Shown here piece after piece: positions 33,718 through 55,522 of a DNA stretch of 64,000 bases. Origin of the DNA: Sulfolobales archaeon HS-7 (lineage in GTDB: Archaea; Thermoproteota; Thermoprotei_A; Sulfolobales; Sulfolobaceae); the NCBI GenBank assembly GCA_019704295.1, contig AP024596.1, positions 558,001-622,000 on the forward strand, written 5' to 3'. The translations under genes and the position numbers were made by a program. Below the pieces are notes generated by a model that was not told the origin of the DNA, did no database searches, and was given only the letters and a program-made list of their open reading frames with translations. Within the stretch, counting starts at the first letter, position 1, and each line of letters starts with the position of its first letter.

Positions 33718-35865
33718 TTACCTTCTTCTCAAGAACACTACTGCTATTGCAATTATTACTATAATTACTATGACTATAGCAACAATTTCTAAGGTACTAA
33801 CAGATGATGGGTGAGTTGTTGTAGTGACGGGAGGTACTGTCGATGTTGTGGTCACGGGAGGTGTGGTAGTTGTTGTGGTCACGGGAGGTGTGGTAGTTGT
33901 TGTGGTCACGGGAGGTGTGGTAGTATATGGTTGATAGTACATCATGTTATAGTAATAACCAGCAAATTCGTTATACTGAAAGTTCTTCACATAAGGTTGT
34001 ACAAAGTAATACGTGTAAGGAACTGGTAGCCATAGATATGGCGCCTGATGATATGTAATATTGTATATCTTAGCAGCCATTTCTATCTGTTCTGTAGCAT
34101 TCGTGATAAATGGAACTTGGTTATCCATTTGATTTACTACCGAATTATTTAACCACGCTAGATCTCCTGAAAGGCCTCCGTCCAATACGTTAGTTTGTAC
34201 GTCAAGTTGCTGGAAGATAGGATCTGGCCAATCGGGCACCCATCCAAGATCAACAAGGTCTGGAGTTCCACTGGGAGTACTCCAACCATCAGTGACTGAA
34301 GCGGTTACCAATTTTATAGAGGTAGGTATACCGATTTGCTCTAGATTCTGCTGGATAATTTCTAGTTCCTCTTGTACAAGGGGAGTTATGGGCGTTAGAG
34401 TGTATATTGCAAGTGTAGATAAAGGTGTAGCTGAAGAATTGCCTACAGTTGTTCCATTCGGAAGAGTTACGTAGAAGTGTCCCTCATATCCTGCCTCGTT
34501 GAGATAGGTCAACGCTAGTGATACATTATATGAATATGGCTGAATATGATCCATAGAGACTATCTGGTTATACACGGGGAACTGCGGAGAGATTGGACCC
34601 ACGAACTCACTAGCGAGTATCGTCCCATTATATGAGAAAATATGGAGAAGTGCAGAATAGTTAACAGCATGTACTAGTGCTAACCTAAATGCAGTTATGT
34701 TTGTTGGATACTCTTCCGTATTCATGGCAATATATAGCACTTCTGGCTGACTTCCAAAGTTAGCGAATATTCCAGATAGCGGAACAGTGTATTGGTAACC
34801 CGTGTATATTGAACCTATGTAGGGAACGCTAACGAAGGATATCTGAGCCTCATTTTTATCGAACTCCTCGACCCTTGCGGTATGACTCAGTCCGTATTCT
34901 ATCTCTATAATCGAAATGTGAGCTGGTTGGGCTACTGCTGGAACGCTTTCGCTAACCCCCCAGTAGTTGGGTACTGCTTTTAGAACAATTGTTGAGAACC
35001 CCTCAGCCACTGACACTATCTCATAAGGTCCTGTACCTGGCATTCCGTGAAGGTTTATGTAGGAGTTTGGAGTGTTCGGTTGGACCCCTCCGTGCTGATC
35101 AACGAAGACAGGGTCCTGTATTGCTCCCCACCACGCAGCAATGTCGTATAGGAAATACCTGTACGGTATCAAAGTACTTATCTCTACCTCGTAAGCACTC
35201 TTAACGACTACAGCCTGATATGGGTACTCCATTATCTTCTGGATGGTTGCGTTGTTAGCATTGAAGTTCGAGAGTATTGAGGCTAGCACGTCAGCGGCCA
35301 AAGTCGCGTTGGTATTAGTTGGCAATCCAGTGACGTTGTGTATAGCGTTCGCGACTCCCCAGGGTAACGCATATCCCGTCTGACCGTATTGAGTTGCGTT
35401 AAAGAGGAGGGTAATATAGTTCGAAACGCCGGGTCCCTGTCCCATAAGTATCATTCTGTAGAATGAGAACCAAACTGTTGAGGCGTTAACTTGAACGCCG
35501 TCGCTGAAGTGAACTCCTTGCCTTATGTAGAACGTGTAGTTCTCGTAGTTGGTCGTGGAGTAGTTCTGGGCAATTACGGGAACGAGTTGAAGGAAGTTAG
35601 AACCGTTGAACTCCACTAGTTCCTGGTAAACTGCAGTAAAAAGAGGACCGTCTTGAACATAAAAGCCAGTTGCAGGATCTAGAGCGTCAGGTGCAGCTGT
35701 TTGGGATACATCAACAAGTACAGAACTATTCGGAGGAACTATGGTAACTCCTTGTGCACTAACGTGTATAGGTATGAAGGCTAGAAGTCCTATTGACGCT
35801 ATCCCTACCAAAAATAGTAGTACATATCCTTCCAATTTATTATAATTATATACCTGACTATTCAT
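33718..35865 (-). CDS. ABC transporter substrate-binding protein, family 5 (Opp/Dpp type)
   Basis: 715 residues. An N-terminal hydrophobic signal or anchor (about 13-33, ending in VSA), a large family-5 solute-binding domain with many N-glycosylation sequons (NGSN, NNAT, NYT), a Thr-Pro linker (repeats of PPVTTTTTT, about 650-690), and a C-terminal membrane anchor STLEIVAIVIVIIVIIAIAVVFLRRR. This layout is typical of Sulfolobales cell-surface binding proteins. The substrate (oligosaccharide or peptide) is not visible. It probably partners the permease/ATPase operon at 25986-29869, now separated by a dead tnpB and the lipoylation cassette. ATG at 35865. Confidence 0.88.
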   Translation of the reverse strand: MNSQVYNYNKLEGYVLLFLVGIASIGLLAFIPIHVSAQGVTIVPPNSSVLVDVSQTAAPDALDPATGFYVQDGPLFTAVYQELVEFNGSNFLQLVPVIAQNYSTTNYENYTFYIRQGVHFSDGVQVNASTVWFSFYRMILMGQGPGVSNYITLLFNATQYGQTGYALPWGVANAIHNVTGLPTNTNATLAADVLASILSNFNANNATIQKIMEYPYQAVVVKSAYEVEISTLIPYRYFLYDIAAWWGAIQDPVFVDQHGGVQPNTPNSYINLHGMPGTGPYEIVSVAEGFSTIVLKAVPNYWGVSESVPAVAQPAHISIIEIEYGLSHTARVEEFDKNEAQISFVSVPYIGSIYTGYQYTVPLSGIFANFGSQPEVLYIAMNTEEYPTNITAFRLALVHAVNYSALLHIFSYNGTILASEFVGPISPQFPVYNQIVSMDHIQPYSYNVSLALTYLNEAGYEGHFYVTLPNGTTVGNSSATPLSTLAIYTLTPITPLVQEELEIIQQNLEQIGIPTSIKLVTASVTDGWSTPSGTPDLVDLGWVPDWPDPIFQQLDVQTNVLDGGLSGDLAWLNNSVVNQMDNQVPFITNATEQIEMAAKIYNITYHQAPYLWLPVPYTYYFVQPYVKNFQYNEFAGYYYNMMYYQPYTTTPPVTTTTTTPPVTTTTTTPPVTTTSTVPPVTTTTHPSSVSTLEIVAIVIVIIVIIAIAVVFLRRR
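33850..33924. repeat. 27-bp tandem repeat in the binding-protein gene
   Basis: About 2.8 identical copies of a 27-bp unit (GGTCACGGGAGGTGTGGTAG plus TTGTTGT) encode the PPVTTTTTT linker on the minus strand. The unit is a multiple of three, so copy number changes only linker length. Confidence 0.85.
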
Positions 35866-52569: not shown

Positions 52570-52905
52570 ATCGATTTAAATACCTCTACATCAGCGAAAT
52601 TATAAACATTGGTATGAATTTTATTTAACTGTGTTACAAACTAAAGTTAATTCGGAAAAAACCCGCTCGATCTAAGGTAGTTTAGTTAAGCGGTTTCCAA
52701 CCGTGAATTGCTTACGAACCTTAACGTAAAAACTCGATCTGCCAGGAGGACGTATAACAAGGTAAGTTATGAAAACATAAGAGAGCCCTTGTACTCAATT
52801 AAAGAACTCTCCTCTTTTAATTCGTGCTTACGCGTTAACTAAGGCCCTCACATAAATATCATACCATAAATTATAATTACCTCTAATGTAAGGTTACCCA
52901 TGGTG
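52570..52905. other. Gene-free upstream region
   Basis: About 330 bp with no convincing ORF or RNA. It ends with CATAAATTATAATTACC (52866-52880), a TATA-like sequence for the following short ORF. Confidence 0.3.
52871..52876 (+). promoter_or_regulatory. TATA-like box upstream of the acidic-repeat ORF
   Basis: TTATAA is centred 26.5 bp before an ATG at 52900 and 36.5 bp before ATG 52910. Position fits transcription starting at or just before 52900. Confidence 0.4.
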
Positions 52906-52909
52906 TTTA

Positions 52910-53038
52910 ATGTTGGAGGAAGAGGATTGGGAAGAAGAGGACTTTGAGGAAGAGGATTGGGAAGAAGAGGACTTTGAGGAAGAGGATTGGGAAGAAGAGG
53001 ACTTTGAGGAAGAGGATTGGGAAGAAAACGAATGGTAA
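52910..53038 (+). CDS. 42-residue highly acidic repeat peptide, unknown
   Basis: ATG 52910 to TAA 53036-53038 encodes Met-Leu followed by four decapeptides EEEDWEEEDF; the last one ends EENEW. Glu+Asp exceed 75% of residues, and Trp and Phe alternate every five residues. The DNA is a perfect 30-bp repeat, a multiple of three, so copy changes keep the frame. Other frames are also open: a +1 frame reads KRIGKKRTLR repeats and the minus strand reads Ser-rich repeats from an ATG at 53052, so coding in this frame is not proven. An ATG at 52900 in another frame gives a 15-codon ORF starting at the expected leaderless position. No family is recognised. Confidence 0.45.
   Translation: MLEEEDWEEEDFEEEDWEEEDFEEEDWEEEDFEEEDWEENEW
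52916..53025 (+). repeat. 30-bp perfect tandem repeat, about 3.7 copies
   Basis: Unit starts GAGGAAGAGGATTGGGAAGA and ends AGAGGACTTT; copies at 52916, 52946 and 52976 are identical, and a fourth is partial to about 53025. It is purine-rich on the plus strand. Period and absence of unique spacers rule out a CRISPR array. Confidence 0.95.
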
Positions 53039-53319
53039 TAATGCCTCATCATACTAAGAAGACATTATCTATTTTTGGAGTAGTTTTACTAGTAAAGTGA
53101 GCTATTCTCATCCTGAATGGTTAGATCAAAAGTAGCTTATCTGAGTTTGAATTATTATAGTAAAATAATCTTGGAATTGATGTAAATAGTGTTCTAGTTA
53201 TTAGAATAAGCTTGTTGGAGTTAAGGGTCTTCAATTGCTTTCCGATAAATATTGTATAGTCTTCTAAAAATCAGACAGTGCAGCTTATTACCTAACGTTT
53301 CTAGCAAGATATAAATTCA
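53039..53319. other. Gene-free region after the repeat
   Basis: AT-rich, no ORF or RNA gene recognised. A minus-strand ATG at 53052 reads into the repeat (Ser-rich frame). Confidence 0.3.
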
Positions 53320-53610
53320 CCCCATCTTGGCAAAAGGAGGCTTCCTGTTTCACTGCTCCGCCTTGCGTGTAGTAAAGGGCGGAACTTCACAGGCCGTGAG
53401 GGTCGCCCCAGAAGTGAGCTTAACGTTAGTGTTTCACGCGGAACTGTAGCTGGAGTGTAGGCGTACCACATTTACCCTCACTTAGGTGTCTTGGTAACAT
53501 TCACCTAGCCGAATGCTATCACTGATGTACTGGCCGCGAATTGACTTAAACAGAAGAAGCTATCCATCCCCTCGCATATTCCGCCCTTTTGAACCTCTGA
53601 TAAAGATAAG
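53320..53610 (-). pseudogene. tnpB 3'-end relic
   Basis: Reverse-strand fragments: FKRAEYARGW near the upstream end, TPK-G-MWYAYTPATVPRETLT in the middle and a KQEAS-like tail, with several stops. Same block order as the 24615, 39110 and 60100 relics. Confidence 0.6.
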
Positions 53611-53719
53611 AAAACTTTATCGATTCTCTACTTAATATTAGATGCAAATATACCTGGTGGTTAATTAATGCCTTACTTTAGAAATAATAGTTTGTCCTTT
53701 AAATTCGGGAGGAATTGAC

Positions 53720-55522
53720 ATGAGATTAGCTGTAGTTAATTTAGATCTGTGTAAGCCTACTAAGTGTAATTACGAGTGTATAAACTTCTGTCCAGTTAAT
53801 AGGTCAGGCACTACTGCAATTGAAGCGCTAAATGAACTCAAGGGAAAACCAAGGATCTATGAGGAGACCTGTATAGGATGCGGTATTTGTGTAAAGAAAT
53901 GTCCCTTTGAGGTTATTTCAATAATAAACCTTCCTGATCAGTACGAGGGAGAAGTAGTCCACCGATATGGTGCAAATGGGTTTAAGCTCTTCGGTCTTCC
54001 GACACCAAAGACTGGAAAAGTTATAGGGATTTTGGGACGAAATGGTTCCGGTAAAACGACAATACTTAAAATACTCAGTGGAGAGATCATGCCTAATTTT
54101 GGCATAGTAGACCAGAATCCGACAATAGACTCTGTCCTAGATAACTTTCGCGGGAAAGAGATCTACGACTACTTCAGGAAGTTATACAATAGAGAATTAA
54201 AGGTAGTTCATAAAATACAGTATGTCGATCTCGTCGGGAAAAGATTATCAGGAAATGTAGCGTCTCTGTTAACCAAAGTGAACGAAAGCGGTAAGTTAGA
54301 TGAGATAAGAGAATTATTGAACATGAATTCCTTTTGGAATAAGGAAGTGAAGACACTAAGTGGGGGAGAGCTTCAGAAACTTCTGATAGCTGCTACTCTA
54401 GCGAGAGAGGCCGACGTATACGTACTCGATGAGCCGTCGTCTTACTTAGATGTAAGGGAGAGACTGAACATGGCTAGAGCAATTTTAACTCTTACGAAGA
54501 ACAAATTCGTTTTATTAGTAGAACATGACCTAGTAGTGTTAGATTACCTATCGGATCTAGTTCACATAGTCTATGGAGAACCGGCTGTTTACGGTAAGGT
54601 ATCCAAGCCATACTCCTCAAGAGTAGGAATAAATTACCTAATAGAGGGATATCTCCCCGCGGAGAACGTAAAGTTTAGGGACGATAAAATAATCTTCGAA
54701 TTAAAAGAGCTTAATGAAGAAAATAAAAAGGGGAAAGAAAAGAGGGTAGAGTGGTCGTCATTAAATGTAATTCTCTCTGGATTTCAACTTAGGGTGGAGG
54801 AAGGATATGCCTTTAGTGGGGAGATTATCGGCATCTTGGGACCTAACGGAATTGGAAAAACGACATTTATGCGTGTTCTAGTCGGAGAAGTAATGCCTTC
54901 CTCGGGATATGTTATAGTGTCAAACCTCACTATGGCGTACAAACCCCAAAAGATAACACCAGAATTTCCAGGGACAGTTAGAGAACTATTAATCGCATCA
55001 AGTGAAGACGCGTTATCCAACTCCTCTTGGTTTTACGTGGAAGTAATAAGGAAATTCGGACTCCACAAACTACTTGACTCTGAAATATCAACACTAAGTG
55101 GGGGAGAGCTTCAGAAACTTCTGATAGCTGCTACTCTAGCGAGAGAGGCCGACGTATACGTACTCGATGAGCCGTCGTCTTACTTAGATGTAGAAGATAG
55201 ATATACAATGGCTAAGGCAGTAAAAAGAGTTACCTTAGAAAGGGGGGCAGTAACCTTCATAGTTGAACACGATATCTCAATTCATGATTACATTGCGGAT
55301 AGGTTAATGGTTTTTACTGGACAACCAGGAATCAATGGTCGTGCGTCATCGCCCCTATCGAGGAAAGTCGGAATGAATAGCTTTCTCAAAGAGATGGATA
55401 TAACCTTTAGAAGAGATCCCGATACTGGTAGACCCAGAGTTAACAAACCAGATAGCTATCTAGATCGGGAGCAAAAGAGAAAGGGAGAGTATTACTTCGT
55501 GGAAAGTAAAGTTCTAGAATGA
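53720..55522 (+). CDS. abce1: ABCE1/Rli1 ribosome recycling ATPase
   Basis: 600 residues. N-terminal Fe-S domain with LCKPTKCNYECINFCPVNRSG and CIGCGICVKKCPF (two 4Fe-4S clusters), NBD1 with Walker A GRNGSGKTT, NBD2 with Walker A GPNGIGKTT, signatures TLSGGELQKLLIAATL in both NBDs, Walker B VYVLDEPSSYLDV in both, and H-loops VEHD. It splits ribosomes after termination or Pelota-mediated rescue; pelA is in this window. A GGAGG at 53708-53712 sits 7 bp before ATG. The NBD1 and NBD2 signature/Walker B segments are identical in DNA over 102 bp. The 3' end overlaps the convergent MDR-like gene by 31 bp. Confidence 0.95.
   Translation: MRLAVVNLDLCKPTKCNYECINFCPVNRSGTTAIEALNELKGKPRIYEETCIGCGICVKKCPFEVISIINLPDQYEGEVVHRYGANGFKLFGLPTPKTGKVIGILGRNGSGKTTILKILSGEIMPNFGIVDQNPTIDSVLDNFRGKEIYDYFRKLYNRELKVVHKIQYVDLVGKRLSGNVASLLTKVNESGKLDEIRELLNMNSFWNKEVKTLSGGELQKLLIAATLAREADVYVLDEPSSYLDVRERLNMARAILTLTKNKFVLLVEHDLVVLDYLSDLVHIVYGEPAVYGKVSKPYSSRVGINYLIEGYLPAENVKFRDDKIIFELKELNEENKKGKEKRVEWSSLNVILSGFQLRVEEGYAFSGEIIGILGPNGIGKTTFMRVLVGEVMPSSGYVIVSNLTMAYKPQKITPEFPGTVRELLIASSEDALSNSSWFYVEVIRKFGLHKLLDSEISTLSGGELQKLLIAATLAREADVYVLDEPSSYLDVEDRYTMAKAVKRVTLERGAVTFIVEHDISIHDYIADRLMVFTGQPGINGRASSPLSRKVGMNSFLKEMDITFRRDPDTGRPRVNKPDSYLDREQKRKGEYYFVESKVLE
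54353..54454 (+). repeat. 102-bp direct repeat in ABCE1, copy in NBD1
   Basis: Codon-aligned, 34 codons covering signature to Walker B/D-loop (codons 212-245). Identical to 55091-55192 at every base, unlike the flanking sequence. Confidence 0.97.
55091..55192 (+). repeat. 102-bp direct repeat in ABCE1, copy in NBD2
   Basis: Codons 458-491, identical to 54353-54454. Bases after the block differ at once (AGGGAG versus GAAGAT). Confidence 0.97.

Follow-up and report, generated by a model that had tools for sequence, protein, structure and literature searches.

The enzyme ABCE1, which splits ribosomes for reuse, ranks with the most conserved proteins that archaea and eukaryotes have. How it is controlled, and how it is released from the small subunit, is an open question on which the microprotein described here may bear. 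Recycling by ABCE1 is assisted by eIF3j, and the role of ABCE1 in initiation is described as still to be elucidated (PMC7196836). The binding of eIF3j/Hcr1 to eIF3b depends chiefly on one Trp that stands among acidic residues (PMC2824034).

Two other described systems involve short acidic sequences or C-terminal aromatic residues. Acidic residues in the first 30 amino acids cause ribosome pausing or drop-off, and an E. coli gene is controlled by an acidic leader peptide via the ABC-F protein EttA (PMC11282234). Acidic runs discontinue translation in eukaryotes too (PMC9718836). The yeast protein Rli1 requires the adaptor Yae1-Lto1, which contacts the CIA targeting complex through a conserved C-terminal Trp; certain organisms have Phe at this place (PMC4523923).

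Acidic microORF in the window

The window, i.e., the whole stretch of 64 kb that was analysed, lies in a 2.15-Mb single-contig genome of Sulfolobales archaeon HS-7 (G000:C1:558001-622000), and the microORF region occurs there only once. The 42-codon acidic ORF built of perfect 30-bp units was present as in the preliminary description, by translation and by Tandem Repeats Finder (Table 1). Its full translation is MLEEEDWEEEDFEEEDWEEEDFEEEDWEEEDFEEEDWEENEW*. The last 20 residues before the stop include 19 that are E, D, W or F. By the same score, no other stretch of the window exceeded 9, and the maximum among 60 copies of the 64 kb simulated by a first-order Markov model was 10.

The TATA-like box mentioned earlier was found, and so were an ATG at 52900, which is out of frame, and the Ser-rich ORF of the minus strand (52894-53052). 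The alternative frames, i.e., the KRIGKKRTLR frame, the one from ATG 52900 and the Ser-rich one, were rejected as incidental, the last being incidental to the purine-rich unit. The preliminary description missed the conserved linkage to ABCE1, which is the main point.

Table 1. Features of the microORF locus in the window (positions are those of the window)
Feature	Position	Strand	Basis or remark
TATA-box-like sequence TTATAATTA	52871..52879	+	About 30 nt upstream of GGTG; by eye
GGTG, Shine-Dalgarno-like, 4 nt before ATG	52902..52905	+	By eye; also ahead of the ORF in many relatives
Acidic/Trp microprotein ORF, 42 aa, MLEEEDWEEEDF...EENEW*	52910..53038	+	Frame kept in 117 copies
3.7 perfect copies of 30-bp unit (EEEDWEEEDF) inside the ORF	52916..53026	+	Tandem Repeats Finder, period 30, 100% matches
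Spacer between microORF and ABCE1, 681 bp	53039..53719		Elsewhere in this family 38-76 bp
T5 tract (TTTTT) shortly past the ORF stop	53072..53076	+	Matches the T-run of related genomes
Relic of tnpB 3'-end/right-end region of an IS200/IS605-type element, in the spacer	53314..53495	-	DNA similarity
ABCE1/Rli1, ribosome-recycling ATPase, next gene on the same strand	53720..55522	+	Pfam Fer4_RLI and two ABC stretches

The relic in the spacer is 77% similar to positions 2124845-2125026 of its own genome and 72-77% similar, over 58-82 nt, to DNA of other genomes. In one of these (G108; L198, L199), the similar stretch overlaps a tnpB gene at its 3' end. The relic possibly includes the guide-RNA region of the element.

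Another tandem repeat of the window, with a 27-bp unit in 4.1 copies at 89% (33814-33924), looks ordinary. In translation it gives a stalk rich in Thr and Pro, close to the C-terminal end of a protein of substrate-binding type that is secreted (33718-35865, minus strand).

Microprotein family and codon-level constraint

The window region was searched as DNA in 197 genomes of the same order. Many of these genomes gave matches, and the matches translate to short ORFs in the same acidic frame as the window ORF. The members, e.g., MVKVLVFEEDWEEEFDEFDEEEDWEEEDFEEEEW*, MFEEEWWEEEEEEEWWEEEEEWEEEEW* and MKWLILDEEEEWWEEEEEEEEWWEEEEEEWEEEEW*, follow one pattern, i.e., Met, a few hydrophobic or basic residues, then runs of E/D in which Trp (in some members Phe) recurs at regular places, with Trp as the usual last residue. 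The 117 copies taken together consist of 57% E, 14% W and 6% D. The residue just before the stop was W in 96 copies and F in 4, i.e., W or F in 100/117. The terminal Trp is absent in several clades, which end in E or WE (f2 subclades, g9 and f6), and internal Trp residues are conserved besides the terminal one. Most ORFs are 20-45 aa long (20-67 aa by a generous start rule) and acidic throughout; the starts were picked by rule and some lineages have GTG or TTG candidates only, so the N-termini are uncertain.

Codons were compared in same-length pairs that differ by up to 25%, which are not independent of each other. In these close pairs, changes at codon positions 1, 2 and 3 numbered 106, 81 and 512 (73% at the third position), with 423 synonymous vs 167 non-synonymous codon changes. 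With one nearest neighbour for each copy (41 pairs), the counts were 73, 56 and 262, with 193 synonymous vs 111 non-synonymous changes. Judged by this comparison, the microORF is a conserved microprotein gene, with protein-level constraint over its whole length.

Relatives show other spacings than the 30-bp unit of the window. Because the acidic frame is kept with mostly synonymous change across the copies, the perfect repeat is a lineage-specific homogenised form of an old coding pattern and not a non-coding minisatellite. The preliminary description had proposed that repeats breaking the acidic frame in related strains would speak against coding. The comparison of relatives gave the opposite, i.e., repeat number and unit differ and the E/D/W frame is kept. 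The earlier suggestion that an expressed peptide, extremely acidic, with aromatics at regular intervals and so far undescribed, could be encoded here has strong support, with the acidic frame conserved across the phylum.

Five representatives hit no family in Pfam or in NCBIfam, where profile searches are weak on low-complexity sequence. One representative matched no chain in a PDB sequence search, and an Rfam search of the microORF region gave nothing. In open-access papers, no description of such a family was found. The microORFs appear to form an undescribed protein family, although databases may list individual members under the label of hypothetical protein. A profile-HMM search of 250 genomes gave no match even in the window's own genome and was uninformative, with the handling of low-complexity sequence as the probable cause. 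Low-complexity filtering can thus hide a deeply conserved gene family.

Linkage to ABCE1 within the order

ABCE1 was located in 178 of the 197 order genomes, and 100 of the ABCE1 loci were taken and scanned for the microORF on both strands. Five families (f1, f2, f3, f8 and f11) contributed 71 loci, and in 59 of them the microORF immediately precedes ABCE1 on the same strand. All 100 loci together gave 68 forward vs 5 reverse matches, where the forward matches include six downstream of ABCE1 (f2 and f10). A named Candidatus Aramenus locus (L126) has the microORF 52 bp upstream of ABCE1. In f8 and f10, a KEOPS Cgi121 gene was suspected beside the ORF, and Pfam gave no confirmation of it.

In the window's own family (f1), the spacer to ABCE1 is mostly 41-56 bp. 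By eye, a TATA-like AT-rich sequence and GGTG precede the microORF in most f1 genomes, and AT-rich TATA-like counterparts stand at a similar place in related genera. A T-run of at least five was found between the ORF stop and the ABCE1 start in 23 of 23 f1 stretches; for one of these (G050), which lacks an intact ORF, a chance stop served as the anchor. Shuffled stretches gave a mean of 8.1 and a maximum of 14. The T-run fits a putative short transcription unit with an oligo-U terminator, in which case ABCE1 would be read through or separately initiated.

Distribution over the phylum and beyond

The profile-HMM search was replaced by a stop-anchored DNA pattern, i.e., [ED]2-W-[ED]4-W-stop with one mismatch allowed, and the reversed pattern served as control. 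Outside the order, the pattern matched in 115 of 397 phylum genomes vs 3 for the reversed control. Of 30 loci fetched there, 28 have the ORF followed closely by ABCE1 on the same strand; the two exceptions are a locus without an intact ORF (L169) and one without ABCE1 in view (L178). Among five named Bathyarchaeota loci, three (L127, L130 and L136) have the ORF 121-621 bp upstream of ABCE1. A scan of genome contigs yielded 19 loci, of which 15 were archaeal ABCE1 and only one came from Sulfolobales. Thirty further ABCE1 loci, mostly from families with few or no pattern matches, showed the ORF upstream on the same strand in nine cases and on the opposite strand in none. ABCE1-linked copies are thereby found in about 17 families, i.e., five of the order and about twelve further families of the phylum including Bathyarchaeota.

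In the sampled members of six families (f13, f18, f19, f27, f28 and f47), no ORF was found beside ABCE1, so ABCE1 is not universally dependent on the microprotein. In two families (f14 and f31; L226, L229 and L225), ABCE1 is preceded by an ORF of about 100 aa whose C-terminal part is acidic (..KGKKRKEEERELMADYYEVFLENF..).

In an Asgard sample, the pattern occurred in 11 of 148 genomes, with no ABCE1 in any fetched locus. Several of the Asgard loci (L211-L215, L208, L202 and L210) hold short acidic/Trp ORFs, e.g., FDDEDLWEEEDWDDDEWEDDDDW*, that are not near ABCE1 and look similar to the Thermoproteota family. In a Thermoplasmatota sample, the pattern occurred in 5 of 117 genomes, again with no ABCE1 in any fetched locus. 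These matches lie within long unrelated proteins and were rejected as family members.

Copies unlinked from ABCE1

The microORF is also kept away from ABCE1. Genus g5 belongs to the window's family, and an intact ORF is missing upstream of ABCE1 in six of its seven genomes; two of the six (G155 and G136) show an acidic-looking remnant there by eye. By DNA matches independent of the pattern, an intact ORF was found elsewhere (L145-L149) in all of five g5 genomes, four of them without the copy beside ABCE1. One genome (G175) carries both a linked and an unlinked microORF, which suggests that duplication preceded the loss of the copy beside ABCE1. In family f10, the ORF is 0.75-5.7 kb from ABCE1 or oppositely oriented. 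In f4, f5 and f6, it lies away from ABCE1, and in f6 it sits between a UPF0004/radical-SAM/TRAM protein gene and a methyltransferase-like gene. That the ORF survives when unlinked speaks for the peptide as the selected product, one that would act in trans.

Proposed role and alternative explanations

The microprotein, which was ancestrally encoded together with ABCE1 and is predicted to be disordered, may serve ABCE1, or the 30S-ABCE1 post-splitting complex, as a trans-acting acidic/Trp peptide cofactor. From the sequence comparisons and the analogy with eIF3j, we regard this proposal as having about an even chance of being correct. If the ORF is translated, hydrophobic pockets would take up the Trp residues of the peptide, while a basic surface on ABCE1, on a ribosomal protein or on a partner factor would be held by its carboxylates. 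The bound peptide could then tune splitting, ABCE1 release or anti-association, and it would work like the acidic-Trp motif of eIF3j/Hcr1, a eukaryotic recycling accessory factor. The relocated copies no longer adjoin ABCE1, and the linkage could therefore be historical.

A natural microORF-ABCE1 read-through chain was modelled with AF2, with a 42-nt gap, stops read as Gly, and 6 fused and 26 ABCE1-only rows. ABCE1 was modelled well (mean pLDDT 85.8 overall), and the peptide was disordered and undocked, with pLDDT 22-46. The predicted disorder is consistent with a disordered linear motif. A single-chain AF2 model says little on the docking of a low-complexity peptide and gives no support either way.

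The strongest mechanistic rival is a cis-acting leader peptide. Translation of the acidic ORF would sense recycling capacity and control ABCE1 expression, and the behaviour of ribosomes on the ORF, beside the T-run, would decide between transcript read-through and re-initiation on ABCE1. The short and nearly constant spacer of the f1 genomes fits such a leader, and so do their T-runs, which resemble an archaeal oligo-U terminator. The MgtL-type leaders modulated by EttA are likewise short ORFs that precede a regulated gene and contain acidic residues with a destabilising effect (PMC11282234), and one family of microORFs is followed by a T-run. The destabilisation of ribosomes by acidic runs (PMC11282234, PMC9718836) would need no regular placement of Trp, however, and the window's own spacer is long and interrupted by the relic of an insertion element. 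Unlike a leader, moreover, the microORF is kept when it is unlinked from the downstream gene (g5, f4, f5, f6 and f10) and shows protein-level constraint over its whole length. A leader function is thus considered unlikely.

The microprotein could also serve ribosomal proteins, chromatin proteins or RNA-binding factors in general, as a polyanionic chaperone or a mimic of nucleic acid, so that the linkage to ABCE1 would reflect a shared expression unit only. Extreme acidity combined with aromatics would suit this role, as would the relocation from ABCE1 in several families, the position of the f6 copy and the similar Asgard ORFs. The linkage in about 17 families reaching to Bathyarchaeota, however, is above what is expected for a random housekeeping partner, and such a role appears rather improbable. 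The ideas of a DNA mimic or a modified-peptide precursor, put forward in the preliminary description, gained no specific support.

As an adaptor for iron-sulfur maturation, the peptide would use its C-terminal acidic-Trp tail to bring apo-ABCE1 together with the machinery for cluster insertion, a task that in eukaryotes falls to the C-terminal Trp of Lto1 in the case of Rli1. ABCE1 has Fer4-type domains, and the frequent terminal Trp or Phe of the microprotein recalls the C-terminal aromatic of Lto1, which is dedicated to ABCE1/Rli1 (PMC4523923). Lto1 differs in having the deca-GX3 motif, which occurs in none of the 117 copies, whereas the microprotein has many conserved internal Trp residues and, in the clades ending in E or WE, lacks the terminal Trp. 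The C-terminal tripeptide code is reported to be specific for CIA clients and missing from the archaeal orthologues examined (PMC10623007), and we hold this function to be very unlikely.

Finally, a non-coding minisatellite with a fortuitous open frame, which the perfect 30-bp copies of the window and their period, a multiple of three, might suggest, is rejected, since the counterparts in other genomes are not perfect repeats, and yet their amino-acid pattern is unchanged and most of their codon differences are synonymous.

Comparison with eIF3j/Hcr1

Among the closest described systems is eIF3j/Hcr1. Its N-terminal acidic (NTA) motif has Trp among acidic residues, is a short linear motif and belongs to a factor that aids recycling by ABCE1/Rli1 (PMC2824034, PMC7196836), and the acidic/aromatic composition is found in all microprotein copies, as low-complexity sequence with no alignable homology. 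In contrast, eIF3j/Hcr1 is a protein of full length, the microprotein has nothing that corresponds to its C-terminal half, and the known partner of its NTA, eIF3b, is a subunit of eukaryotic eIF3. The resemblance lies in composition and in the proposed partner, and no family membership is claimed. A small, ancient and overlooked protein beside ABCE1, in a phylum with Sulfolobales models, is a directly testable candidate regulator. We tentatively suggest, as a possibility that is somewhat doubtful at present, that the phylum-wide acidic/Trp microprotein, encoded together with ABCE1, assists ribosome recycling in archaea as an accessory factor and is a functional counterpart, and possibly an ancestral form, of the acidic-Trp motif of eIF3j.
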